64,000 nt of DNA from an uncultured SAR116 cluster alpha proteobacterium (GTDB lineage: Bacteria > Pseudomonadota > Alphaproteobacteria > Puniceispirillales > Puniceispirillaceae), in assembly GCA_902622515.1 (NCBI GenBank), contig CACNQE010000005.1, forward strand, positions 62,001 through 126,000, given 5' to 3'. The notes beneath the pieces were generated by a model. It was not told the origin of the DNA. It did not search any database and was given only the letters and a program-made list of their open reading frames with translations. Position numbers and translations under genes: made by a program. Shown here piece by piece: positions 42,351 to 54,957 of the stretch (its first letter is position 1; every line of letters begins with the position of its first letter).

Positions 42351-43529
42351 ATGAGCATAAATAAACCAGTCAGAGCACGAGATGGCCAACAATGGATATA
42401 TGATTATCTAATGAGAACAACCGGCCGTGCTATCCATTTTGAGATTGATGGTCGCCAACTTCCCTCTCCGGTAAAATCAATTAAAATGGCAGCAAAGTAT
42501 CTCTCAAAGAAAGCGGAAAAGGCCGAGAAATTAGCTTCGTTATCTAAGTCCAACGGTGATTTAATAAGTGCTCGAATTTTATATCGAAAAGCCTCTGAAA
42601 TGTTTCGTGAGGCTCAGCATTTTACAGTGCCAATCATAAGTGATTATAGATGGGGCCTATATGAAAAATGTCTCTCTTGTACTGAGGAGCTTCATAAACT
42701 CTCAGAATATAAAATTCAGAAAGTGTATCTTGAATCGGAAATTGGTCCCATACCAGCATTATGGCACAATTTTGATGCTGAGGTAGAAGCGCCTGCAGTA
42801 GTCTTTATTCCCGGAATGGACAATACGAAAGAAAACTATCCAAACCCTCTAGAAAACGAATTTCATATGAGAGGGATGCATGTATTGGCGATTGATGGTC
42901 CGGGGCAAGGTGAAATGCTTAGGGATGGTGTTTATGTAACACATGATAATCATATTATTGCCGCTAGAGCTGCATATGAATTTCTGGCAAGACAAAAATC
43001 GGTGGATGAGAAGAAGATTGGCATATGCGGAAGAAGTTTTGGCACTTTTTGGTCAATGAGAGCAGCCGCGGCAGAACCAAGATTTGCCGCCCTGGCAGGT
43101 GCGGTGGCATGTTATTTTTGGGATAATCTCAATATTTTCGATGAGGCACCAATTCGATTCAAACAGATATTTATGGAAATGGCAGGCACTCATTCGGAGG
43201 ATCAATTTGACTTAATGTGTCAGGATTATAGTCTCAAACCAGATGTTGAGAAGATCTCTTGTCCAACGCTAATGGCAACTGGTGAATTTGACCCGTTGAG
43301 CCCATTAGAGGATGCGGACGCGATTTTCAGCAAACTAAATGCTCCAAAAGAGATGTGGGTGTTTGAAGATGAATTTCATCCTATCCGAACTCCAGAGGCA
43401 CTGTCAGGGCACAGCGTTTTTCACTATATCGCCCATTGGATGAGACAAGCGTTGGATGGAAATCTTCCTTCTAAATATGAAAAGAGGCGCTATATTTCAA
43501 AAAATGGTGATGGCATGTTTGACATATAA
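42351..43529 (+). CDS. FrsA / dihydroxypseudooxynicotine-hydrolase-like alpha/beta hydrolase
   Basis: A 392-residue hydrolase with a helical N-terminal cap domain (residues 1-120, including a helix-turn-helix repeat-like stretch rich in Lys and Ala) followed by an alpha/beta hydrolase domain. The nucleophile is Ser229 in CGRSFGT, the acid is Asp314 in GEFDPLSP and the base His343 in DEFHPI. IDGPGQGEMLRDG is characteristic of the group that includes the C-C bond hydrolase of nicotine breakdown and fungal polyketide hydrolases. The substrate is unknown. It stands alone, 291 bases after psiE. Confidence 0.85.
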   Translation: MSINKPVRARDGQQWIYDYLMRTTGRAIHFEIDGRQLPSPVKSIKMAAKYLSKKAEKAEKLASLSKSNGDLISARILYRKASEMFREAQHFTVPIISDYRWGLYEKCLSCTEELHKLSEYKIQKVYLESEIGPIPALWHNFDAEVEAPAVVFIPGMDNTKENYPNPLENEFHMRGMHVLAIDGPGQGEMLRDGVYVTHDNHIIAARAAYEFLARQKSVDEKKIGICGRSFGTFWSMRAAAAEPRFAALAGAVACYFWDNLNIFDEAPIRFKQIFMEMAGTHSEDQFDLMCQDYSLKPDVEKISCPTLMATGEFDPLSPLEDADAIFSKLNAPKEMWVFEDEFHPIRTPEALSGHSVFHYIAHWMRQALDGNLPSKYEKRRYISKNGDGMFDI

Positions 43530-43573
43530 TATTATCTTTTCCAAGGAAGAAAGATTATGCGACCTATCTCGAT

Positions 43574-44482
43574 TTAAAATATTTTAGGAACATAAAGGGT
43601 ATCAGGTAGAGTTCTACGTTCATAATCTGGGTTAAATTGCCTTTCAGGAAGAGAGATTTTCTGATGCGGAATTTCAACATAAGGAATTTTAGAAAGTATA
43701 TGACTAATGCAATTTAGGCGTTCACGTCTTTTATCATTACCTTCAACGATGTACCAAGGGGCAACATCAGTTGATGTTCTCTCAAACATCTCTTCTTTTG
43801 CTTTTGTATATTCTTCCCATTTTATTCTGCTTTGAAGATCCATTTCAGATAATTTCCATTGTTTTAATGGATCGTGAATTCTCAGCATGAAACGAAACTG
43901 CTGTTCCTCATCTGTTATTGAAAACCAATACTTAAGTAATATTATATCAGCTCGCACTAGCATCTTTTCGAACTCAATCACGTCCTTAAAAAACTGTTCT
44001 ACTTCTTTATTGGTTGCGAAACCCATAACCTTTTCTACCCCAGCACGATTGTACCAAGACCGATCAAACAAAACAATCTCTCCTCCTGATGGGAGGTGAG
44101 GAACAAAACGTTGGAAATACCACTGTGTCATTTCACGTTCCGTTGGTTTTGGCAACGCAACGATCCGAGATACTCTAGGGTCCATTCTTTGGGTAATACG
44201 CTTTATAACGCCACCCTTTCCGGCACTGTCTCGGCCTTCACATAATATTACAATCTTAGAGTTGGTCGCGACGACCCAATCTTGTAATTTAATTAATTCT
44301 GATTGTAGCTCTAAAAGATATTTATAATAGGTATCATTTTTTAGGGTTGATTTTTGTCTCTCTAAATAATTATGTTGCAGTTCTGGTGGGATAGTATCTT
44401 CAAGTTCTAGTTCAAATGTGTCTTCAAGCATGCCGCTTACAAACTCGGCTGTAAACTTCGGTTTTGAATCTCTATCGCGCAT
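43574..44482 (-). CDS. ppk2: Polyphosphate kinase 2 (PPK2)
   Basis: A 302-residue PPK2-family kinase that transfers phosphate between polyphosphate and nucleoside di- or monophosphates. Walker A GRDSAGKGG is at 83-91, the lid has PKPTEREMTQWYFQRFVPHLP and Walker B is IVLFDRSWYNR. The motif set and size fit the common one-domain class I enzymes (GDP/ADP phosphorylation). A Pho box lies 58 bases upstream of the ATG, so phosphate limitation probably induces it. It ends facing the FrsA-like gene. Confidence 0.95.
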   Translation of the reverse strand: MRDRDSKPKFTAEFVSGMLEDTFELELEDTIPPELQHNYLERQKSTLKNDTYYKYLLELQSELIKLQDWVVATNSKIVILCEGRDSAGKGGVIKRITQRMDPRVSRIVALPKPTEREMTQWYFQRFVPHLPSGGEIVLFDRSWYNRAGVEKVMGFATNKEVEQFFKDVIEFEKMLVRADIILLKYWFSITDEEQQFRFMLRIHDPLKQWKLSEMDLQSRIKWEEYTKAKEEMFERTSTDVAPWYIVEGNDKRRERLNCISHILSKIPYVEIPHQKISLPERQFNPDYERRTLPDTLYVPKIF

Positions 44483-44539
44483 CAGTTAAACCTAAAAAAC
44501 AAACAATCCCTTTATCTTGTAAATAGCTAAAAAATAAAT

Positions 44540-44557
44540 ATGACACTTTTATTACAG
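44540..44557 (-). promoter_or_regulatory. Pho box upstream of ppk2
   Basis: Read on the minus strand: CTGTAAT, AAAA, GTGTCAT. Two seven-base half-sites spaced by four bases, each with one mismatch to the CTGTCAT PhoB half-site. It is located between the NUDIX stop and the ppk2 ATG and points toward ppk2. Confidence 0.7.
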
Positions 44558-44561
44558 TTTT

Positions 44562-45020
44562 TTAAATTAAATTGCCGGGGTTAATACTAGATACAAAATC
44601 AGAATTAATTTTCTGATTATTTATTTGGCTATAGGTGTTTAGACCTTTATTTGAATAAGGGTTTAATAATTCTTTAACGACTTTCTTAGTATAAACGTTG
44701 GTTTCTATTAATAAAATTTCATGAAGTGTTAGAAAACATCTTGTTCGGTATTTTTCCTCAGGCCATCTTTTCTTTACTTTTTCTATTTTTACGAAAAAGT
44801 AAAGTATTTCAGGTTTATTTAAAAATAAAGTACCATACTTAGTTTTTATTTTTCCATAAACTCCTGCCTCTTCATAAAGCTCTCTCAAAGCAGCAGCGGT
44901 TAATTTTTCGTCTTCACGGACATTGCCTTTTGGAAACGTAAATAGATTTTGCTTATTTGTTATAAGGCAAAATTTTGGTTCTGTTTCTGTTTTTAAATAA
45001 GCAAGTGAGGCAACTTTCAT
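44562..45020 (-). CDS. NUDIX hydrolase
   Basis: A 152-residue NUDIX protein. The box is complete: Gly32, Glu38, Arg46-Glu47, Glu50-Glu51 and Gly53 in the order G-x5-E-x7-RE-x2-EE-x-G, giving a metal-dependent pyrophosphohydrolase of a nucleotide or similar diphosphate. I take ATG 45020; the frame is open to 45107 but the upstream residues come from the shared promoter DNA. TATATT lies about seven bases before the ATG and there is no ribosome-binding site, so the message may be leaderless. It is divergent from a small XRE regulator. Substrate unknown. Confidence 0.85.
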   Translation of the reverse strand: MKVASLAYLKTETEPKFCLITNKQNLFTFPKGNVREDEKLTAAALRELYEEAGVYGKIKTKYGTLFLNKPEILYFFVKIEKVKKRWPEEKYRTRCFLTLHEILLIETNVYTKKVVKELLNPYSNKGLNTYSQINNQKINSDFVSSINPGNLI

Positions 45021-45042
45021 GTTGATAATATAACAGATATAT

Positions 45043-45078
45043 GCAAAATGTACATAAAAAATACGCAAAATGTACATA
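45043..45078. repeat. Pair of 14-base direct repeats (operator-like) between NUDIX and XRE genes
   Basis: GCAAAATGTACATA occurs at 45043-45056 and again, exactly, at 45065-45078, a 22-base period equal to about two helical turns. Each copy contains the palindrome ATGTACAT. The whole divergent region is only 77 bases, so the repeats overlap both promoters. A binding site for the adjacent XRE protein is the obvious reading. Confidence 0.75.
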
Positions 45079-45097
45079 TTTATTGTAATTTGATCCC

Positions 45098-45358
45098 ATG
45101 AAACCAAAGGAATTTAAAAACTGGCGTAAAGCTAACGGATTTAATCAGACGGTGGCTGCGCGTAAACTCGGTTTAAAATTAAGAACCGTACAATACTATG
45201 AAAAAGGTGAACGAAAGGGAAAAAAAATACCTATACCAAAAGCCGTATCACTTGCCTGTTTTGCTATTTCTTGTGGAGTAACTAATGTTGACTTTTCTGA
45301 TCCTAGGGGTCTGCCAAAGAAGAACCAGAATTACTTTAATCTTACGGTAAAAAACTAA
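45098..45358 (+). CDS. Small XRE-type helix-turn-helix regulator
   Basis: An 86-residue DNA-binding protein. The HTH covers residues 4-36: FKNWRKANGFNQTVAARKLGLKLRTVQYYEKGER, the YEKGxR end being typical of XRE/Cro-like proteins. The C-terminal 40 residues are a short dimer or effector region. There is no ribosome-binding site, and TGTAAT (45084-45089) ends nine bases before the ATG, so the transcript may start at the ATG (leaderless). The repeats upstream suggest that it represses itself and the divergent NUDIX gene. Phage or toxin-antitoxin genes are absent nearby. Confidence 0.8.
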   Translation: MKPKEFKNWRKANGFNQTVAARKLGLKLRTVQYYEKGERKGKKIPIPKAVSLACFAISCGVTNVDFSDPRGLPKKNQNYFNLTVKN

Positions 45359-45379
45359 AAATTATAATACAAAATGAGT

Positions 45380-46066
45380 TTATATTTTAAAATCGATTTT
45401 AGGCCGCTCCTCATCCAACATTTTGCCATGTTCAATAAAATAAATTTGCTCAGCTATACTTGTGCAGTAATCGCCTATGCGTTCTATATTTTTTGCTATG
45501 AATAATGCGTTAATTTCTGCTGGGCTCGAACCCTTTTCTACCATCCTACGATATATTCGTTTATAAACTACGCTATGTTGAGCGTCCAATTCTACATCAC
45601 CCTCCCAGACTAATTTCGCCTTTTTAGAATCAAGTCGCCCAAGTGCATCAAGAACATCTGTAAGTAATTCCCTCGCTATCTCAGAAATATCATTAAGTTT
45701 TTGTAAAATGTGTAAATCGCTATCCTCTGCAATCATAAATTCGCGCCTTTTTATGATATTTTTCGAATAATCGCCAATTCGCTCAAGGAATGTAGCAATC
45801 TTTGGAGCTGTAATTATTCGTCTTAAATCATTTGCTTGAGGTGATCTAATAGCAATGATCTCTACAGTCTTATTATAGATTTCACTTTCCAGTTGGTCTA
45901 TTTTTTTATCATTTTTAATTAAACTCTTGAGATTTGCCTCTTCATTTGCCATACCATCAGTAACTGCGATGAATTGACTGAAGGCTAAGCTACCCATTTT
46001 TGTAATAAGTGTATCCAACTCACTTAAATCATCGTCAAAGGCAGAGTTAATATGTTCTCTAGTCAT
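45380..46066 (-). CDS. phoU: Phosphate transport regulator PhoU
   Basis: A 228-residue all-helical protein made of two PhoU three-helix repeats, each with the E/DxxxD metal-binding pattern (for example RIGDYSKNI and RIGDYCTSIAEQIYFIEHG). PhoU links the PstB transporter state to PhoR so that the Pho response is shut off when phosphate is sufficient. It is the last gene of the pst run, starting nine bases after pstB, with a GGA ribosome-binding site. Confidence 0.97.
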   Translation of the reverse strand: MTREHINSAFDDDLSELDTLITKMGSLAFSQFIAVTDGMANEEANLKSLIKNDKKIDQLESEIYNKTVEIIAIRSPQANDLRRIITAPKIATFLERIGDYSKNIIKRREFMIAEDSDLHILQKLNDISEIARELLTDVLDALGRLDSKKAKLVWEGDVELDAQHSVVYKRIYRRMVEKGSSPAEINALFIAKNIERIGDYCTSIAEQIYFIEHGKMLDEERPKIDFKI

Positions 46067-46075
46067 TTTAATTTC

Positions 46076-46846
46076 CTAACCAATTTTACCAGATATATAG
46101 GCTTCGGTCTGAGTGTCTTTTGGGCGAACAAATATTTCTTTAGTATCCCCATACTCAATTAAATTACCAAGATGAAAGTAGGCAGTTTTCTGAGACACTC
46201 TCGCAGCCTGTTGCATTGAGTGAGTTACAATTATAATTGTATATTCCTTTGCCAACTCTGACATTAGGTCTTCAATCTTTGATGTCGCTATTGGGTCGAG
46301 GGCAGAACATGGCTCGTCCATAAGTATGATTTGAGGTTCTACTGCAATTGTTCTAGCGATACATAAACGCTGTTGCTGCCCTCCTGACAAGCCTGTCCCA
46401 GATTCATTAAGTCGGTCTCTTGCTTCATTCCATAATCCGGCACCTTTCAGCGCTTTTTCTACTATTTCATCAAGTTCGGATTTACTTGATGCTAGTCCAT
46501 GTATGCGCGGGCCATAAGCAACATTTTCGTAAATTGATTTTGGGAATGGATTCGGTTTTTGAAAGACCATCCCAACTTTTGCTCTAAGCGGTACAACATC
46601 AACGGATGGATCATAGATATCTTGTCCATCAACAATTACACTTCCTTCTATTTTACAATGTTCAATGGTGTCGTTCATACGATTTATAGTTCTTAAAAAA
46701 GTGGACTTACCACAACCGGATGGTCCAATAAAAGCAGTAATAGATTTTTTTTCAATGCCAATGCTTACACTATTTATTGCTTTATTTTCTCCATAATATA
46801 CTGATACATCTCTGCACTTTACTATATTCTCAATATTTTGGTTCAT
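46076..46846 (-). CDS. pstB: Phosphate ABC transporter ATP-binding protein PstB
   Basis: A 256-residue ATPase of the high-affinity phosphate importer. Walker [10 protein letters not shown] (near 38-46), signature [13 protein letters not shown], Walker [13 protein letters not shown] and switch [12 protein letters not shown] are all intact. The [10 protein letters not shown] and [25 protein letters not shown] segments are PstB-specific. A GGGG site precedes the ATG. It lies 14 bases after pstA. Confidence 0.98.
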
Positions 46847-46860
46847 GCAAATCCCCTAGA

Positions 46861-48141
46861 TTACCAACGACGTTCCAACTTTCGACGAAGCCAAACGGCC
46901 CCTCCATTCATTATCATTAAAAATAATAATAATATAATGATTGCTGCACTAGTTTTCTGAATAAACATTCTTTCTGCAAAATCAGCCCACATAAATATTT
47001 GCACAGGTAGTACGGTTCCTGGATCTGTTACTGATCCTGGTATATCAACAATGAATGCTACCATTCCTATCATTAACAAAGGAGCCGTCTCACCAAGTGC
47101 TTGAGCCATGCCAATTATTGTGCCAGTGAGCATTCCTGGAATAGCTAGTGGTACTACATGATGAAAGGTTGCCTGCATGGGAGAAGCCCCAATTCCAAGC
47201 GCTCCATCCCGTATGCTTGGGGGGACGGCTCTTATAGCTGCTCGGCTTGAAATTATAATCGTTGGAAGGGTCATTAAAGCTAAAACCATGCCGCCAACTA
47301 AAGGGATTGATCTTGGCATACCAAAAAGATTTATAAAAATCGCCAGTCCTAGAATTCCAAAAACAACGGATGGAACTGCTGCTAAATTATTAATATTTAT
47401 TTCAATTAATTCAGTAAATTTATTTTTTGGAGCAAATTCTTCTAGATAAACCGCAGTGGCAACACCAATAGGGAATGATATAATGAAGCAAATTGCTAAG
47501 GTAAACATAGAACCGATAAATGCACCTTTTATGCCGGCCATCTCCGCATTTCTTGAAGCACTACCAAAAAATAGATAATCAGATACTTCATATGAGATAA
47601 GACCTTCTTTTTTCATTTTGTCTAGATACGAAATTTCTATATCTGAGAGTCTTCTTTGTTTTTCCGGTGTTTCCTTCTTAATAAATCCACGAAAATAAGA
47701 ATCCGCATCATCGTCTAAAGCAAATTTAATTTTTTGCATTGTATCCAATTTATCGGTATTGTTTTTAACAAATTCTACTAGACGCACATCTGACCCGTTA
47801 GATAAGAGACTGCGCGCAGCTTTTTTTTCACTTCGATTTTTTGCGCCAGTAAATTCTAAAACTGCTTCATTAATGATCTTTTTTGCTTGTCCTTCAAACA
47901 GGGACTGGTCTGACATGTCACCCCTAGGGTCGAGTCGTTCTCTTGTTAATTCAACTTCAAAAATTGCATAGTATTGAAAAAATCCGGGTGCTCCCTTTGA
48001 TACGATAGAAACTAAAAGAATTGCCAAAAAAATCACAGCAAGGGCTATAGCTGAGACACCAAACAATCTAAAATTTCGCTCTTTTTTGCCTCTAGCTTTT
48101 AAACTATCAATTACTATCTTTTCGGTGCGTGTTTGAGCCAT
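46861..48141 (-). CDS. pstA: Phosphate ABC transporter permease PstA (long form with N-terminal domain)
   Basis: A 426-residue permease. The C-terminal half is the normal binding-protein-dependent transport domain, with the EAA-type loop GALGIGASPMQATFHHVVPLAIPG. The N-terminal half adds a membrane helix (about 29-48) and a roughly 150-residue charged domain (the DUF3333 type), found in many alphaproteobacterial PstA proteins and absent from E. coli. With PstC it forms the membrane channel. It follows pstC by 11 bases. Confidence 0.95.
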   Translation of the reverse strand: MAQTRTEKIVIDSLKARGKKERNFRLFGVSAIALAVIFLAILLVSIVSKGAPGFFQYYAIFEVELTRERLDPRGDMSDQSLFEGQAKKIINEAVLEFTGAKNRSEKKAARSLLSNGSDVRLVEFVKNNTDKLDTMQKIKFALDDDADSYFRGFIKKETPEKQRRLSDIEISYLDKMKKEGLISYEVSDYLFFGSASRNAEMAGIKGAFIGSMFTLAICFIISFPIGVATAVYLEEFAPKNKFTELIEININNLAAVPSVVFGILGLAIFINLFGMPRSIPLVGGMVLALMTLPTIIISSRAAIRAVPPSIRDGALGIGASPMQATFHHVVPLAIPGMLTGTIIGMAQALGETAPLLMIGMVAFIVDIPGSVTDPGTVLPVQIFMWADFAERMFIQKTSAAIIILLLFLMIMNGGAVWLRRKLERRW

Positions 48142-48152
48142 CTTAAGTTTCT

Positions 48153-49538
48153 CTATTCGTATTGTTCTTTATATTTTTTTACAATTTGTAAAGCAAAGAA
48201 GTTAAGTATTAGCGTTATAACAATCAAAGTTAAGGCAAGAGCGAAAGCCGACAGTGTTTTAGCTGATTCGAATTCTTGGTCGCCAACTAATATTGTAACA
48301 ATTTGTGCTGTAACAGTGGTTACAGCATCAAGTGGGTTTATTGAAAGATTAGCTGCTAAGCCTGCTGCCATAACAACAATCATTGTTTCACCAACTGCTC
48401 GTGATACTGCTAGAATAATACTTGCAACTATGCCGGGTAATGCTGCTGGTAAAACTACCTTTTTTATAGATTCACTTTTAGTTGAACCGAGTCCTAGTGC
48501 GGCATCTCTTAATGACTGTGGAACGGCACTTATTACATCATCTGACAAAGACGATACAAAAGGTATTATCATGATACCCATAACAAAGCCTGCTGCGAGA
48601 GCTGATTCTGAAGCTACATCAAGTCCGATTAAACTGCCGGTTTGACGGAAAAATGGCGCTATAGTCAGTGCGGCAAAAAAACCATAAACAACTGTTGGTA
48701 CCCCAGCAAGAACCTCAAGCATTGGTTTGAAAATGCCACGTACTTTTTTGCTAGCGTACTCAGAGAGATATATTGCGGATAAAAGGCCAACGGGAACAGA
48801 CACGCTGAGGGCGATAATTGATATAAGAAAAGTGCCTACAAACAGTGGAATCGAGCCGTAACTCGAAAGACCAGCTTGGTCAGAGCCAGCTCGAGCAGCT
48901 CCCTCAAATTCAGGATTCCAGGTCAACCCAGTTAAAAACTCCAACGGAGGTATAAGTCGAAAAAACCTTAATGATTCAAAAATAACTGAAAAAACAATTC
49001 CGATTGTTGTGATAATTGCTATCAATGAGCAGACAACTAAACCAATCATCATCAATTTTTCGACGGCTATTCTCGCTCTAAATTCAATTTTTATTTTGGT
49101 CAAAGAAAAATAACCTAAGGTAACGCTCAGTAGTATACTCGATATTGCAATCATAATATTTGAGTAGCCACGCCAAACTATTAACTTTTCTGCTAAGGAA
49201 ATGACCCATTGTTCCGGTTTCCCAACTATGATACCTGATGCAATATTTTGTATTTTGGCGATTAGGATCAGAACTGTTTGGTTTCCATCTATAATTAAAT
49301 TATCTGGGAAACGATTTTTTAGCATTTGATTAAAAATAACGTCATCAAAACCTATCCATAAGGATAAAAGCACCAATGAGGGAGCTATGCCTAAAATAGC
49401 TGGAAAAAATCCATAGTAAATGTATAGAGAATGAGGCCTTTTATCTTCAGCTTTAGAAATGCTGACGATTTTATTTCTTCCGATAAAAAATAAACTACAT
49501 CCTGTTATTATTATTATTATGTAAGTTGTAAGAAGCAT
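48153..49538 (-). CDS. pstC: Phosphate ABC transporter permease PstC (long form)
   Basis: A 461-residue permease with the standard transport domain in its second half (EAA-type loop ALGLGSTKSESIKKVVLPAALPGIVAS; GETMIVVMAAG). The first ~200 residues add two or three extra membrane helices and a periplasmic loop, an alphaproteobacterial extension. It lies 70 bases downstream of pstS, separated by a strong hairpin terminator, so it should be made in smaller amounts than PstS. Confidence 0.95.
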   Translation of the reverse strand: MLLTTYIIIIITGCSLFFIGRNKIVSISKAEDKRPHSLYIYYGFFPAILGIAPSLVLLSLWIGFDDVIFNQMLKNRFPDNLIIDGNQTVLILIAKIQNIASGIIVGKPEQWVISLAEKLIVWRGYSNIMIAISSILLSVTLGYFSLTKIKIEFRARIAVEKLMMIGLVVCSLIAIITTIGIVFSVIFESLRFFRLIPPLEFLTGLTWNPEFEGAARAGSDQAGLSSYGSIPLFVGTFLISIIALSVSVPVGLLSAIYLSEYASKKVRGIFKPMLEVLAGVPTVVYGFFAALTIAPFFRQTGSLIGLDVASESALAAGFVMGIMIIPFVSSLSDDVISAVPQSLRDAALGLGSTKSESIKKVVLPAALPGIVASIILAVSRAVGETMIVVMAAGLAANLSINPLDAVTTVTAQIVTILVGDQEFESAKTLSAFALALTLIVITLILNFFALQIVKKYKEQYE

Positions 49539-49550
49539 TTTTATCTCTAT

Positions 49551-49588
49551 AAAAAAAGGGCGTCAGTATTAAGATTTAACTGACGCCC
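49551..49588 (-). terminator. Attenuating terminator between pstS and pstC
   Basis: Ten-base perfect stem GGGCGTCAGT/ACTGACGCCC (49558-49567 and 49579-49588) with an 11-base loop, followed on the minus strand by a run of seven T. It sits directly after the pstS stop inside the operon and should end most transcripts there. Confidence 0.9.
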
Positions 49589-49608
49589 CATTGTAACACA
49601 AATGTTTT

Positions 49609-50643
49609 CTACAGCATATCAGCAGTAAGTTTTGGCAACTCTGACATTGCCTTTTTGTACTTAGCTTGTTCGTCTGCAGGCATAGGAACCATTCCTGCGT
49701 CAGCTAATACACCATCATCACCCCAATGCTTTGTCCACTCTTCCATGTATTCAGCTATGCCAGGCACAACACCAACATGAGCATGCTTCACGTAAAAATA
49801 CAAAGCCCTTGAAATAGCATAGTCTCCACTTGCAATTGCCTCAAAGGTTGCTCCACCCCCGTCAATAATTGCACTCTGAAGTGTGTCTCTGTTTTGGTCT
49901 AAATAGGAGAATCCAAATATACCGTATGTTAAACTATCTTCTTGAAGCTTTTGCACAATTAAATTGTCCTGTTCACCAGCTTCGATGAAGGCCCCGTCTG
50001 TTCGCATGGCACGGCATTTCTTACCTTTCTTATCGTCTCTTGCTGCTGACGCTTTTTTTGCCAACTCATCTTTTGCACAGTATGCCTTCTGATTTACCAT
50101 TTCAGCAAATGATGCGCGCGTACCAGATGTCGTTGGAGGACCATAAACTCTTATTTCTATATCTGGATAACTTGGGTTAATTTCACTCCATTTTTTGTAA
50201 GGGTTAGGAATCCAAGAACCATCCTCTTGAGGAATTTCTGCAGTTAGTGCTTTACCCAAATCTGCTTTTGAAATTTTTAGAGTCTCACCATTAATAGAGT
50301 TGGCTACTGCGATTCCGTCGTATCCAACTTTTATTTCAGTTAGGTCTACACCATTTTTGTCGCAATATTCTAATTCAGATGTTTTCATTCGTGATGAAGC
50401 GTTCCCAATATCGATGTATTCGGTTCCAATTCCGTCGCAAACTCCTTTTTTACCAACCGAGGAGCCACCAGATTCAACAACCGGGGTTTTGAAAGATGGG
50501 TTTTTACCCATTTCTTCTGCTATTATGGTCGCAAAAGGTAAAACAGTTGAGGAACCGGCTAAACTTAATTGATCTCTAGCCTGAGCTACACCAGCTATCG
50601 ATATAGATAACGCCAGTGTTGTAAATACTTGTGAAAAACGCAT
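49609..50643 (-). CDS. pstS: Phosphate-binding periplasmic protein PstS
   Basis: A 344-residue binding protein with a Sec signal peptide (cut likely after AQA, residue 22). Phosphate-binding loops are recognisable: LAGSSTVLPF, SGGSSVGKKGVCDG, GNASSRM and GPPTTSGTRASFAEM. It captures phosphate for PstCAB. It has a strong AAAAGGAG ribosome-binding site and a Pho box about 50 bases upstream, and is followed by a terminator, consistent with high expression under phosphate stress. It carries a cysteine-containing loop (CAKDELAKK...KKC) that may form a disulfide. Confidence 0.97.
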   Translation of the reverse strand: MRFSQVFTTLALSISIAGVAQARDQLSLAGSSTVLPFATIIAEEMGKNPSFKTPVVESGGSSVGKKGVCDGIGTEYIDIGNASSRMKTSELEYCDKNGVDLTEIKVGYDGIAVANSINGETLKISKADLGKALTAEIPQEDGSWIPNPYKKWSEINPSYPDIEIRVYGPPTTSGTRASFAEMVNQKAYCAKDELAKKASAARDDKKGKKCRAMRTDGAFIEAGEQDNLIVQKLQEDSLTYGIFGFSYLDQNRDTLQSAIIDGGGATFEAIASGDYAISRALYFYVKHAHVGVVPGIAEYMEEWTKHWGDDGVLADAGMVPMPADEQAKYKKAMSELPKLTADML

Positions 50644-50674
50644 AAAATTCTCCTTTTAAATAGTTTATTCGCGA

Positions 50675-50708
50675 GTCATAAATGTCTATTATTACACTTT
50701 TGTGACAA
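50675..50708 (-). promoter_or_regulatory. Pho box and -10 element of pstS
   Basis: On the minus strand TTGTCAC-AAAA-GTGTAAT (50691-50708): two PhoB half-sites with four-base spacing. Ten bases further lies TATGAC (50675-50680), a fair -10 element, so the box takes the place of the -35, as in known Pho promoters. Confidence 0.75.
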
Positions 50709-50725
50709 AAAAGGTTTTTATAAGA

Positions 50726-51445
50726 TTAATTATGATCACTCAAAGCTAGAGCATAACCTGAGCTTCTCACTGTCCGAATAACGTCTCCCCAGTCTCTACC
50801 GTTAGATTGCTTTTGAAGAGCTTTTCTTAATCTTCCAATATGTACATCAACAGTTCTATCTTCAACGAACACTCCATGTCCCCAGGCATTATCCAATAAT
50901 TGTGACCTACTATACACTTGCCCTGGTCGCTCCATTAAGGTCGACAAAATATTAAACTCTTTTGGTCCGAGACTGATTGCTATCCCATCTCTTTCAACTA
51001 ATTTTTTTCCAGGATATAGTTTTAAATTCCCGTGCTCTATTACTTCATTAACAACGGAGGGTTTAGCTCTTCTCAATATAGCCTTGATTCGAGCAATAAG
51101 TTCTTTCGGTGAGAAAGGTTTGGTAATATAATCATCTGCACCAATGTCAAGTCCCAGCGTTCGGTCGCCTTCCTCTCCTCTTGCGCTTAACATGATTATC
51201 GGAATATGTTTTGTAAATGATTTCGAGCGTAATTCTCGGCAAACTTCAATACCAGATAAAACTGGCATCATCCAGTCCAAGATTATAATGTCTGGCAAAT
51301 AATCTTCGGCATAGCTTATTGTGTCCTCTCCATTTTCGCAGGATATGACGTTAAAGTCGGCTTGTTTGAGATTATAACGCAAGAGTTCTAATTGATTAGG
51401 CTCGTCATCCGCAATAAGAACTTTCACTTTGGGTTTATTTTTCAT
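50726..51445 (-). CDS. phoB: Phosphate regulon response regulator PhoB
   Basis: A 239-residue OmpR-family regulator. The receiver domain has the acidic pair ADDE, phospho-acceptor Asp57 in IILDWMMP and the switch Lys in ITKPFSPKEL. The winged-helix domain (LGPKEFNILSTLMERPGQVYSRSQLLDNAWG...RTVDVHIGRLRKAL) is typical PhoB. It would bind the boxes upstream of pstS, ppk2 and its own gene. It is located between phoR and pstS on the same strand, with its own Pho box, so it is autoregulated. Confidence 0.96.
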   Translation of the reverse strand: MKNKPKVKVLIADDEPNQLELLRYNLKQADFNVISCENGEDTISYAEDYLPDIIILDWMMPVLSGIEVCRELRSKSFTKHIPIIMLSARGEEGDRTLGLDIGADDYITKPFSPKELIARIKAILRRAKPSVVNEVIEHGNLKLYPGKKLVERDGIAISLGPKEFNILSTLMERPGQVYSRSQLLDNAWGHGVFVEDRTVDVHIGRLRKALQKQSNGRDWGDVIRTVRSSGYALALSDHN

Positions 51446-51481
51446 ACTGAATATTCCGCCGCAAATCTTAACATATCCTCA

Positions 51482-51513
51482 ATTATAACAGAAATATGAC
51501 ACTGATGTGACAA
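51482..51513 (-). promoter_or_regulatory. Pho box (up to three half-sites) and -10 of phoB
   Basis: On the minus strand TTGTCAC, ATCA, GTGTCAT, ATTT, CTGTTAT: three half-sites in an 11-base period (51485-51513). The third overlaps a perfect -10, TATAAT (51482-51487), so it may simply be promoter sequence. This is the best PhoB site in the window. Confidence 0.85.
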
Positions 51514-51528
51514 TTTCGGGCCAGACAA

Positions 51529-52629
51529 TTATTCGTTTAATCTTAAACCTGAGAGTAAAGTATGAAAATATGGTACCGAAATTTGAAACATTGTTTCCTT
51601 TTTAAGTTCACTTTCTATCTTAAGCGTCCCTCTATGCTTGTGAATAATATGTTTGACAATTGCAAGACCGAGACCTGTTCCACCCATTTGTCGCGAACGA
51701 CCTTTGTCAACCCGATAAAAGCGTTCTGTTAATCTTGGTAAATGCTCCGCTTCAATACCATCTCCTTCATTTTTAATCTTAACAGTTATTTGACCAACGA
51801 CTGTTTCTGTTAGTTGTATCGTTATCTTAGACTCAGGGTAGCTATATTTGAGAGCATTATCGATCAGATTATGAAATACCTCAGTGATTTCATCAGTTTC
51901 TCCTCTAATGATGGGTTCATCAGTTATGTTTTTTCGTTTGTCTTGAAAATCGATTATGTGCCCTGTTTTTATTGCTCTATTATTAAATGAAGCAATAACT
52001 GAGGCTAAAACTGTTTTGATAAATACTTTTCCGGTTGGTACAATATGCTCTTCTGCTTCTACTCTTGATAATGACATTAAATCATCGATCAGTCGCGACA
52101 TTCGCTTTGCTTCATCTTCCATAATTTTCAGAAAGCGTTCCTTCATATCATTTTCAATATCGGGCGTATTCTGCATTGTTTCTACGAACCCCATAAGGCT
52201 AGTTAGTGGAGACCTCAATTCATGACTTACATTAGCTACAAAATCACGACGTATTTTTTCGAGATTGTGTTGCAACGTCATATCCATTAAAAGGACAATA
52301 GCTCGCTGGTTTCCAATACCTATTATACGTCCTTTGAGGTGATGATATTTATCATTTTTTAGAGTTGCATTAAATTCAGTTATTTTGCCTTCTTGAATAA
52401 GTTCCTGTGATTTATTTTCTAATTCTATATGATTTAATCTTTGATCTAGTAACGTACCAATTAAATTATCGCCAAGTAATCGCTTGGCTGGAGCGTTGGC
52501 ATTCGTAACACAATGTTCAAGGTCGATCTCTAATAATGCATCATCCATCACCTTACCCAAGTATAAAATAGTACTAGGAGTTTTAGTGTTCGGACTTTGA
52601 ACTATTTCTTTTTCATTGGGTTCAGTCAT
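51529..52629 (-). CDS. phoR: Phosphate regulon sensor kinase PhoR, apparently without a membrane anchor
   Basis: A 366-residue histidine kinase. A PAS-like domain (about 25-120) precedes the HisKA helix with His136 in FVANVSHELRSPLTSL and the ATPase with N box HNLIDNALKYS and G boxes GGTGLGLAIVKHI. Unlike E. coli PhoR, no hydrophobic helix is present at the N-terminus, which begins with about 20 polar residues. The start is well fixed: AAGGA lies just upstream and an in-frame TAA (52645-52647) lies six codons before the ATG. It precedes phoB and would be the cytosolic partner of PstB/PhoU. Confidence 0.93.
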   Translation of the reverse strand: MTEPNEKEIVQSPNTKTPSTILYLGKVMDDALLEIDLEHCVTNANAPAKRLLGDNLIGTLLDQRLNHIELENKSQELIQEGKITEFNATLKNDKYHHLKGRIIGIGNQRAIVLLMDMTLQHNLEKIRRDFVANVSHELRSPLTSLMGFVETMQNTPDIENDMKERFLKIMEDEAKRMSRLIDDLMSLSRVEAEEHIVPTGKVFIKTVLASVIASFNNRAIKTGHIIDFQDKRKNITDEPIIRGETDEITEVFHNLIDNALKYSYPESKITIQLTETVVGQITVKIKNEGDGIEAEHLPRLTERFYRVDKGRSRQMGGTGLGLAIVKHIIHKHRGTLKIESELKKETMFQISVPYFHTLLSGLRLNE

Positions 52630-52678
52630 AGACGCGTCCTTATATTATAATACCTTTTTTATTTAGAAAAATCGATTT

Positions 52679-52696
52679 AACAAGTATGTTCTTGTT
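52679..52696. promoter_or_regulatory. Inverted repeat between phoR and the EamA gene
   Basis: AACAAG-TATGTT-CTTGTT is a perfect six-base inverted repeat with a six-base spacer in the 125-base divergent region. It could be an operator or a weak hairpin. No T-run follows. Unassigned. Confidence 0.35.
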
Positions 52697-52754
52697 ATCG
52701 TCATAAAAAAAATAGTTACTATCTTCTCTTTAATTTGTGTTTTACCCTTATGCA

Positions 52755-53663
52755 ATGAAATTGATTTATCGTTATATTTATTCTAGCGCCCCTGCAATGC
52801 TTGTGCTGGCAACATTAGCTTGGGGGAGCCATACAATAGCAGGAAAACTATCTGTTGGCGAAGTAAACCCAATGATGCTTATTTTTTTGAGATGGGCAAT
52901 TGTTGCGTTGTTGATTTGGTCAATTAACGGACGCGCTATGATTTCCTTATGGCCTGTAATGAGTAAGAAATTAAAATGGGTATTTTTGATGGGTGGATGT
53001 GGTTTAAGTTTATTTAATGCATTTTTTTACTTAGCGGCTCATTTTACAAGTGCGATTAATTTGGGAATTATTCAGAGTATTATGCCTGCAATGATATTAC
53101 TCGGTTCTTACTTAATATTTGGCACTGTAGTCAATAGGTTGCAGGTTACTGGTTTAGTTTTGACCTTTTTAGGATGTATAATCGTAGCTGCTCAAGGTTC
53201 GATTGGTAATTTACTACTTTTAACTTTTAATATTGGCGATTTGTTGATTCTACTAGCAATTTTATTCTACGCTGGTTATTCTCTCGGATTAAAGAATAGA
53301 CCATCGATTCCCGGGTTGGCCATGATGGGTTACTTCTCAATAGCAGCACTGATAATGTCCATTCCTTTGGTTGTTATAGAATCTTTGGTTAGTGGTTTTA
53401 GATTTCCAACAGAAAATGGATGGTATATAGTTTTTTATATTGCACTGATTCCTTCATTTTTATCTCAAGTTTTTTTTATGAGGGGAGTCGATTTAGTTGG
53501 TCCAAATTCAGCAGGTCTTTACGCAAACTTAGTTCCCATTTTTTCTGCCCTAATGGCTATTTTAATTTTAGATGAGACCATTAGATTTTATCATCTAACT
53601 GCAATGCTAATTATTTTCTCTGGCATTTTCTTATTTGAAAACAAAAAACCTAATTTAGGTTAA
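52755..53663 (+). CDS. EamA/DMT family transporter
   Basis: A 302-residue membrane protein with ten hydrophobic helices arranged as two EamA repeats (first LATLAWGSHTIAGKL...PMMLIFLRW; second DLLILLAILFYAGYSLGLKNR...AGLYANLVPIFSALMAILILDE). This family exports metabolites or takes up nucleotide-sugar-like compounds; the substrate is unknown. ATG 52755 is chosen over a GTG six codons earlier. It is divergent from phoR and directly before the M24 peptidase (52 bases), perhaps co-transcribed. Confidence 0.9.
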   Translation: MKLIYRYIYSSAPAMLVLATLAWGSHTIAGKLSVGEVNPMMLIFLRWAIVALLIWSINGRAMISLWPVMSKKLKWVFLMGGCGLSLFNAFFYLAAHFTSAINLGIIQSIMPAMILLGSYLIFGTVVNRLQVTGLVLTFLGCIIVAAQGSIGNLLLLTFNIGDLLILLAILFYAGYSLGLKNRPSIPGLAMMGYFSIAALIMSIPLVVIESLVSGFRFPTENGWYIVFYIALIPSFLSQVFFMRGVDLVGPNSAGLYANLVPIFSALMAILILDETIRFYHLTAMLIIFSGIFLFENKKPNLG

Positions 53664-53715
53664 ACATTTTTCAGATTTATAGCTACGCTAATAATCTAAG
53701 GAGATTTAATTTTTT

Positions 53716-54957
53716 ATGGCAAATCTAGATAGAAACAGGGCAGAGAAACTAATGTTGGAAATAGGTGTGGAAGCATTAATTCTTCTTTCTCCCGAAAGCT
53801 TTGTTTATGCCACTGGGGTAAATGCAGGTGTTGCAACAATGTGGCGCAGGTCAGGCGCTGTAGCTGTTTTAATTCCTCGGGACCATAGAATTGCTGAAAC
53901 TGCTATTGTAAGCGATTTATTTTTGGAAAATTTTCGGGCCTATAGTCACATAAAAGATTTGAGAGAGAGCCCAATTTGGGTTGAGACAGCAAACCTTACA
54001 ATGGAAGATAAAAGTAAAAGTGCGAAAGAACAAATTTCATCTTTTGTAGCTGGTCAGAGCAGACCTGAAGAATTCAACCGCCCCACTACTTTTGAGCCAA
54101 AAATCTGTTATCAGCATTTACGTGATGTAATTTTTGAGCATGGTCTAGCTGATTCCCGAATTGGATATGAGGCTTCAGCTATATCTGTATCCGAGTATCC
54201 AGAAATCAGAACTATTTTTAAAAAAATAGAATTGGTAGAGGCGGATAATATGATTAACCAGCTCAAAATGGTAAAAAATAAAAGAGAGATAGAGCACCTT
54301 AGGCTAGCTTCTGAGATCGCAGAGAGTGGAATGATTGCAATTAGAGATGCGATAGAGGAGGGTATTTCAAGAGATGAATTGGAAATAATCTGGAAAGAAG
54401 CAATTTACAGCCATTCTAAGAGTGCCGCATTGAATGGTTCATGGGAATATATCTCTGTTGGGGATAACCCGTGGGGAGGAAATGCCAGAGTGAAAGAGGG
54501 GGATTTAATAAAAGTTGATGTTGGATGTCTTGTTGATGGTTATAGTTCAGATGGAGCTCGCACCTTTATATTTGGGGAACCAAGTAATACAAAATTAGAA
54601 ATATACGATGCCTTGCTTTCAGGGTTTCAAGCAGGATGTAGCCAGTTGCATCCGGGAAAACAATTAAAAGATATTTATTGGGCTACACTATCAGCCATAA
54701 GAGCCCGCGGCTTTAGCTCTTACACAAGGGGGCACTTTGGACATGGGCTTGGTAATGGCTTAGGAAGTGAGCAGTGGCCATTTATCTCAGCCGATGCAGA
54801 AACAAGATTAGAGCCTGGCATGGTCATGGCATTTGAATGCCCTTGGTATATAGATGGCTTAGGGGGTATGATCATTGAGAATCAATTTCTTGTTTGTGAT
54901 ACTGGATGCGAAATGATGAATTCACTTCCGATACAACTCCAGTCAATAGAAAAATAA
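53716..54957 (+). CDS. M24 family metallopeptidase (Xaa-Pro peptidase / creatinase fold)
   Basis: A 413-residue pita-bread enzyme. All five metal ligands are visible: Asp268 (IKVDVGC), Asp279 (SSDGART), His343 (GHFGHGLG), Glu374 (AFECPWY) and Glu388 (IIENQF), so it is likely active. The N-terminal creatinase-type domain (1-160) carries a charged insertion of about 30 residues near position 100. The family includes proline dipeptidases, creatinase and ectoine hydrolase; the substrate is not determined. GGAG precedes the ATG. It faces the TRAP operon tail to tail with four bases between the stops. Confidence 0.9.
   Translation: MANLDRNRAEKLMLEIGVEALILLSPESFVYATGVNAGVATMWRRSGAVAVLIPRDHRIAETAIVSDLFLENFRAYSHIKDLRESPIWVETANLTMEDKSKSAKEQISSFVAGQSRPEEFNRPTTFEPKICYQHLRDVIFEHGLADSRIGYEASAISVSEYPEIRTIFKKIELVEADNMINQLKMVKNKREIEHLRLASEIAESGMIAIRDAIEEGISRDELEIIWKEAIYSHSKSAALNGSWEYISVGDNPWGGNARVKEGDLIKVDVGCLVDGYSSDGARTFIFGEPSNTKLEIYDALLSGFQAGCSQLHPGKQLKDIYWATLSAIRARGFSSYTRGHFGHGLGNGLGSEQWPFISADAETRLEPGMVMAFECPWYIDGLGGMIIENQFLVCDTGCEMMNSLPIQLQSIEK

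Follow-up and report, generated by a model that had tools for sequence, protein, structure and literature searches.

Paired operator-like sites between divergent NUDIX and XRE genes suggest a small autoregulatory switch linked to PPK2 in a SAR116-cluster bacterium

In the window, the whole 64-kb stretch of DNA analysed here, a NUDIX hydrolase gene and a gene for a small XRE regulator diverge from a gap of 77 bases (45021–45097), and the question raised by this arrangement is what the repeats within the gap do for the two genes. The initial annotation had described two identical 14-base repeats at a 22-base period, which proved correct: the exact 14-mer GCAAAATGTACATA is found at 45043–45056 and 45065–45078, with a spacing of 22, and the repeats can be extended to 18-nt copies that agree at 17 of 18 positions. 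When the gap was shuffled with its dinucleotides preserved, the longest exact repeat reached 14 in 1 of 2000 shuffles, and it did so in none of 831 tiles of 77 bp taken from the window. The palindrome originally drawn, ATGTACAT, did not hold as the binding unit. It occurs at 45048–45055 and 45070–45077, with a third copy in the 64-kb window at 50840, a number that 12 of 100 shuffles reach, which makes the 8-mer by itself unremarkable; we rejected it as the unit since the homologues place the symmetry centre 3 bases to its left. The unit is instead a 17-bp palindrome of the GCAC-N3-GTGC type, TAYGCAA-AAT-GTACATA in the window and TGCGCAC-N3-GTGCGCA in GC-rich relatives, with its centre at the middle A of AAT; ATGTACAT corresponds to the eight bases just before the final one in each 17-mer. 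The two operator sites are termed O1 and O2 (Table 1). In G005 (L003, upstream of XRE), one and the same T-to-A substitution is found in the middle three bases of both repeats, which looks like concerted change of the two copies.

Table 1. Coordinates of the features of the NUDIX–XRE gap and its surroundings (window positions)
Feature	Coordinates	Strand	Description	Basis
PPK2 polyphosphate kinase	43574..44482	-	302 aa	
PHO-box-like site	44540..44557	-	2 mismatches; NUDIX–PPK2 gap, before PPK2	
NUDIX hydrolase	44562..45020	-	152 aa, intact Nudix box	
NUDIX promoter-like site	45027..45054	-	TGTACA, 16 nt, TATATT; TG before second hexamer (9 of 12)	consensus scan
Operator O1	45040..45056	.	TATGCAAAATGTACATA; centre 45048; overlaps the -35-like TGTACA (45054-45049) of the NUDIX promoter	
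Operator O2	45062..45078	.	TACGCAAAATGTACATA; centre 45070, spaced 22 bp from O1; XRE -10-like TGTAAT follows 5 bp downstream	
XRE -10-like TGTAAT	45084..45089	+	8 nt between its end and the XRE ATG (45098)	sequence
XRE gene	45098..45358	+	putative autorepressor of 86 aa with one HTH_3 domain	
PHO-box-like site	51485-51502	-	2 mismatches; before PhoB-like gene	

A contig scan for XRE relatives returned 77 loci, 71 of them distant (L048–L118); the nearest records of the XRE loci by sequence are SAR116-cluster genomes, the top one at 99% identity. The GC-rich consensus was picked by eye from the upstream regions of the 71 distant loci, where it is often present in 2–3 copies each, and because it was chosen on the same loci, their own downstream 250 bp served as the control. 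Within 250 bp upstream of the distant XRE genes, sites matching at least 11 of 14 positions were found at least once in 53 of 71 loci and at least twice in 41, with 18 loci having none, compared with 1 and 0 of 71 downstream; composition shuffles gave a mean of 0.85 loci with at least one site and none with two or more.

The divergent gene in 31 of the 71 distant loci encodes a small protein of about 50–100 aa belonging to one family (e.g. L087:3519-3755 (-) and L105:3567-3812 (-)). The members scanned had no Pfam, NCBIfam or PHROG match, with one Tudor_2 match at 0.12, and a search of the PDB with the AF2 model (pLDDT 95.2) returned no fold at E 0.001, the best having E 0.52. At least two operators were found in 30 of these 31 loci versus 11 of the 40 other distant loci.

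For transfer to the window, we built a symmetrised matrix from 112 sites of the 71 distant loci, with zero sequences of the window's family included. In the 110 bp before XRE, the matrix ranks O2 first (3.9 bits) and O1 second (-1.0 bits), and composition shuffles reach the best window score in 8 of 1000 cases and the second-best in 5 of 1000; the scores are low in absolute terms, the sites being degenerate with respect to the GC-rich consensus. Applied to 12 related loci, with the window counted among them, the same scan placed its two best sites at a spacing of exactly 22 bp in 11 (the window, G005, G045, G039, two G022 copies, G049, G043, G026, G020 and Curvivirga), which are not independent cases because the loci are homologous by descent, with G045/G039 and the two G022 copies near identical. 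The distance from the paired sites to the XRE start varies among the loci with 22-bp spacing. The twelfth locus, G010, has a broken XRE with 22 residues left and two weak sites 20 bp apart, and the paired site is gone in G040 and G036, the two scanned XRE-less genomes without an XRE remnant. The window's family and Curvivirga have NUDIX as the divergent gene and an operator spacing of 22 bp; in the distant loci with the small protein, spacings are mostly 27–34 bp, the exceptions being two at 24 bp and one at 66 bp. Both the 22-bp and the 27–34-bp spacings fit whole DNA turns, so that dimers would lie on one face and could bind cooperatively.

The comparison supports reading the repeats as operators that belong to the XRE family and are phased by two DNA turns, and the occurrence of the same kind of paired site beside related alphaproteobacterial regulators makes it very likely that they are the XRE protein's own control switch. 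Of the cooperative XRE binding proposed at the outset, the phased operators stand, and cooperativity itself is probable from their spacing.

The regulator scores above the Pfam gathering threshold of HTH_3 (PF01381; 25.4 bits, cut-off 23), and in an alignment of 56 of the 83 available sequences 22 of its 86 columns are invariant, many of them in helices 2–3 of the HTH. Its AF2 model (pLDDT 89.2) has four helices forming a helix-turn-helix fold; the comparison of operator sites suggests that XRE would bind them sequence-specifically. A Foldseek search with the model found NE0471, HigA2, Aca1/Aca2, SinR and P22 c2 as the closest folds, all weakly (best E 0.003), and a PDB sequence search gave no match at E 0.01. 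The protein is a bare HTH in which no sensor domain was found, and it falls below the cut-offs of antitoxin families (MqsA family 18.4 of 61.8, Y4mF 14.6 of 71.65, HipB 13.1 of 79). A phage origin was rejected: in viral contigs, 5 stretches matched a pattern and none of them encodes a relative. Among phage and plasmid records, 4 phage and 4 plasmid matches to XRE were obtained, with <60% identity and <80% covered; none of the 4 phage records matched is phiCbK.

A consensus scan for promoters found 3 sites, with 0.9 expected. The placement of -10-like elements seven to nine bases from the two ATGs, as first annotated, was about right: on the minus strand, 6 nt separate the end of TATATT (45032-45027) from the NUDIX ATG at 45020, and the end of TGTAAT lies 8 nt from that of XRE. 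The start point of the predicted NUDIX promoter would coincide with the ATG; before XRE, the scan found no matching -35 and no plus-strand promoter using TGTAAT. As the initial annotation had stated, neither gene has a ribosome-binding site, in that no 4-mer of AAGGAGGT lies at -18 to -4 of NUDIX or XRE, but such absence is common here, since only 16 of 47 long window ORFs (first ATG taken) carry such a 4-mer and 31 do not (control position, 5 of 47). Shine-Dalgarno-like 4-mers were found in 6 of 11 other NUDIX loci (G049, G043, G026, G020, G010 and G036) and in 3 of 10 other XRE loci. The suggested leaderless messages are thus possible in the window and in G005, where the hexamer positions fit them for both NUDIX and XRE, but given the 4-mers in relatives and their frequent absence in the window, they are no more than a possibility and not a feature that is conserved with the device.

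The XRE–NUDIX pair has a patchy distribution in the window's family, in which the loss of one of the two genes has left remnants. XRE is present in 9 of 61 genomes and a NUDIX orthologue (E 1e-12) in 10, with both in 7 (Fisher p 9e-6 for 61 genomes that are related and partly incomplete); XRE occurs without NUDIX in G039 and G045, and NUDIX without XRE in G010, which has the XRE remnant, G036 and G040. At L042, which has the same arrangement, an 18-codon frame, MKVGSIAHKSALNELVAH, lies at the expected NUDIX start, where NUDIX relatives begin MKVGAIAY, and we read it as a probable NUDIX remnant. PPK2 (E 1e-80) was found in 16 of 61 genomes, including all 10 with NUDIX, and a second Fisher test, ignoring kinship and genome incompleteness, gave 9e-8. 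In 9 of the 10 NUDIX genomes PPK2 adjoins the pair or NUDIX; in G022, PPK2 lies about 1.5 kb from XRE in one of the two pair copies, with another reading frame between, and no PPK2 was present within the 12 kb fetched around the other copy. Gene order differs: PPK2 and NUDIX share one strand and XRE is divergent from NUDIX, with XRE between PPK2 and NUDIX in most genomes and outside in the window and G005. Comparison thus shows the operator motif, its pairing and its tie to this XRE family, and also that operator, XRE and NUDIX are conserved jointly and decay jointly.

Taking these observations together, we consider it probable, at about 72%, that the gap works as a bidirectional switch with two operators, through which a small XRE protein regulates its own gene and would repress both promoters. 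One XRE dimer would occupy each 17-bp palindrome and, with O1 and O2 two helical turns apart on the same face, binding would probably be cooperative. Because O1 covers the NUDIX -35-like hexamer and O2 lies just upstream of the XRE -10-like element, bound XRE should repress both genes. XRE would thereby be kept low, and NUDIX, perhaps together with PPK2 by read-through, would remain silent as long as XRE is neither removed nor displaced. The parts of this model that we infer are the binding, its sign (repression and not activation), an inducer, and a substrate such as a dinucleoside polyphosphate or a polyphosphate end.

Other explanations of the same gap differ in how well they accommodate the comparison. 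That the repeats arose by chance or as low-complexity AT-rich sequence, or serve another regulator unrelated to XRE, would be in keeping with the AT-rich DNA and the low absolute matrix scores, but is highly improbable in view of the shuffles (1 of 2000), the same motif beside distant XRE homologues and the constant 22-bp spacing. A switch like that of restriction-modification controller proteins, in which XRE activates NUDIX or itself when low and represses when high, would likewise use two phased operators, and C.Kpn2I, C.AhdI and C.BclI are among the 50 best Foldseek matches, all of them weak (E 0.04 to 0.13). The overlap of O1 with the -35-like hexamer of NUDIX suits repression better, however, and NUDIX is kept in the XRE-less G040, G036 and G010, so that no activator is needed there; we regard this arrangement as unlikely.

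XRE could also be held and released by a protein partner, in the manner of an antitoxin or antirepressor system, with NUDIX replacing the small partner of the distant relatives. The bare HTH would be in line with this, as would the presence of HigA2 and MqsA among the weak fold matches and the enrichment of paired operators at the 31 distant loci with the small divergent protein, and there is a precedent in the antirepressor CinS, which acts on the XRE protein PraR according to an excerpt of PMC10688885. Yet no similarity was detected between NUDIX and the small protein, the catalytic box of NUDIX is intact, and XRE and NUDIX have each been lost singly in a few genomes; control by a partner is therefore quite improbable, and a repressing, autoregulating XRE is the reading that we retain.

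The enzyme under this putative control scores 42.6 bits against PF00293 (cut-off 21.1), and its box GNVREDEKLTAAALRELYEEAGV fits GX5EX7REUXEEXGU; the Nudix box was intact in all NUDIX loci looked at. Against named subfamilies (RppH, MutT, NudE and others) it gave 16 NCBIfam matches, 0 at cut-off. The best solved relatives are an Ap4A hydrolase (3i7u, 2.7e-6), DIPP enzymes and Ndx1, to which the likeness is weak and mainly across the Nudix-box half; it makes a nucleotide or polyphosphate substrate plausible. Of the nucleotide-sensing switch envisaged initially, this substrate stays plausible; in XRE no domain that could do the sensing was found. The neighbouring PPK2 scores above the TIGR03707 NCBIfam cut-off (348.3 versus 301.8 bits). 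An excerpt of PMC11352482 names yeast DDP1 among endopolyphosphatases, and by analogy a polyphosphate role for NUDIX beside PPK2 is a fair guess, no more.

The position next to a phosphate island, also pointed out in the initial annotation, is real but partly accidental. PstB, PstA, PstC and PhoU score above their NCBIfam cut-offs, with PhoB (291.9 of 296.2) and PstS (124.1 of 206.6) below. In G004 and G009, of the same genus, the slot between a hydrolase gene and phoU holds a different NUDIX of 150 aa, 27–28% identical (L194:6369-6821 (-), L195:6278-6730 (-)), and no PPK2 or XRE. Identity to G004 is 93–97% left of 43.5 kb, 66–90% from 45.4 to about 54.4 kb and 94–99.8% beyond, a profile that puts the PPK2–NUDIX–XRE cassette at the left edge of a diverged block of roughly 10.8 kb (43520-54400) with phoU, pstB, pstA, pstC, PstS-like and PhoB-like genes. 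The block looks like an exchange of the pst–phoU region that included the cassette. Adjacency to pst/phoU as the defining context was rejected, because in other genomes of the family the pair lies away from pst, with PPK2 staying close. A scan with the PHO-box pattern at 2 mismatches found just two sites in the window, as many as in 5 of 100 shuffles; the one before PPK2 is also present in G005 and was absent at 2 mismatches from the other 11 PPK2 upstream stretches scanned. The best reading is that the phosphate link of the pair is PPK2, not adjacency to pst.

A broader idea, speculative and rather unlikely as a whole, is that the XRE family is a partner-swapping module, in which operator and regulator would be kept while the divergent gene is exchanged: it encodes the undescribed small protein at 31 of the 71 distant loci, and NUDIX both in the window's family and in Curvivirga. 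Along with the partner, the spacing would change by one helical turn, from mostly 27–34 bp to 22 bp. In the window's family the module would control a NUDIX that acts together with PPK2 on dinucleoside polyphosphates or polyphosphate and would be the bacterial equivalent of DIPP-type endopolyphosphatases; the inducer of XRE would be its divergent partner. Among known systems, the Aca1/Aca2/Aca10 autorepressors are likewise small bare HTH proteins with a fold similar to the XRE model (Foldseek E 0.016–0.11, none below 0.001), and PDB titles name palindromic DNA targets for Aca1; these are phage genes beside anti-CRISPR genes, whereas XRE is chromosomal with NUDIX, PPK2 and phoU/pst as neighbours. 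PraR/CdxA/RtrB are, in the excerpt of PMC10688885, also XRE regulators widespread in Alphaproteobacteria; compared by description only, their ChIP motif there has one strong and one weak half-site with dozens of targets, in contrast to the symmetrical paired operator at the regulator's own gene seen here.

As gene control the switch would otherwise be ordinary, and the result is sound but modest. It offers a testable paired operator (GCAC-N3-GTGC) for small alphaproteobacterial regulators that libraries name just HTH, and a NUDIX enzyme linked to PPK2 in uncultured marine bacteria; if polyphosphate is what this enzyme acts on, it would give bacteria a regulated step of polyphosphate trimming next to the operon for phosphate uptake.

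Sites may extend beyond the XRE genes. In the window's own 2.1-Mb genome, O1 and O2 are the only matches to ATGCAAAATGTACAT at 0–1 mismatch; at up to 3 mismatches there are 156, compared with 70 for the reversed pattern, so a wider regulon or further targets are possible. In 16 whole genomes, the exact 15-mer core GCGCACNNNGTGCGC was found at 58 places versus 19 for the reversed pattern and was present in 13 of the 16, with no excess over the control in four (G103, G110, G114 and G116). Thalassobaculum-type genomes have paired sites also away from XRE. At L158:2328-2364 and L159:2455-2491, paired exact copies of GCGCACNNNGTGCGC lie 22 bp apart with no XRE homologue nearby, and they precede look-alike small reading frames (MIVVCSLNGDVCTYR.., MLALIIACSPGQDVCTYR..).
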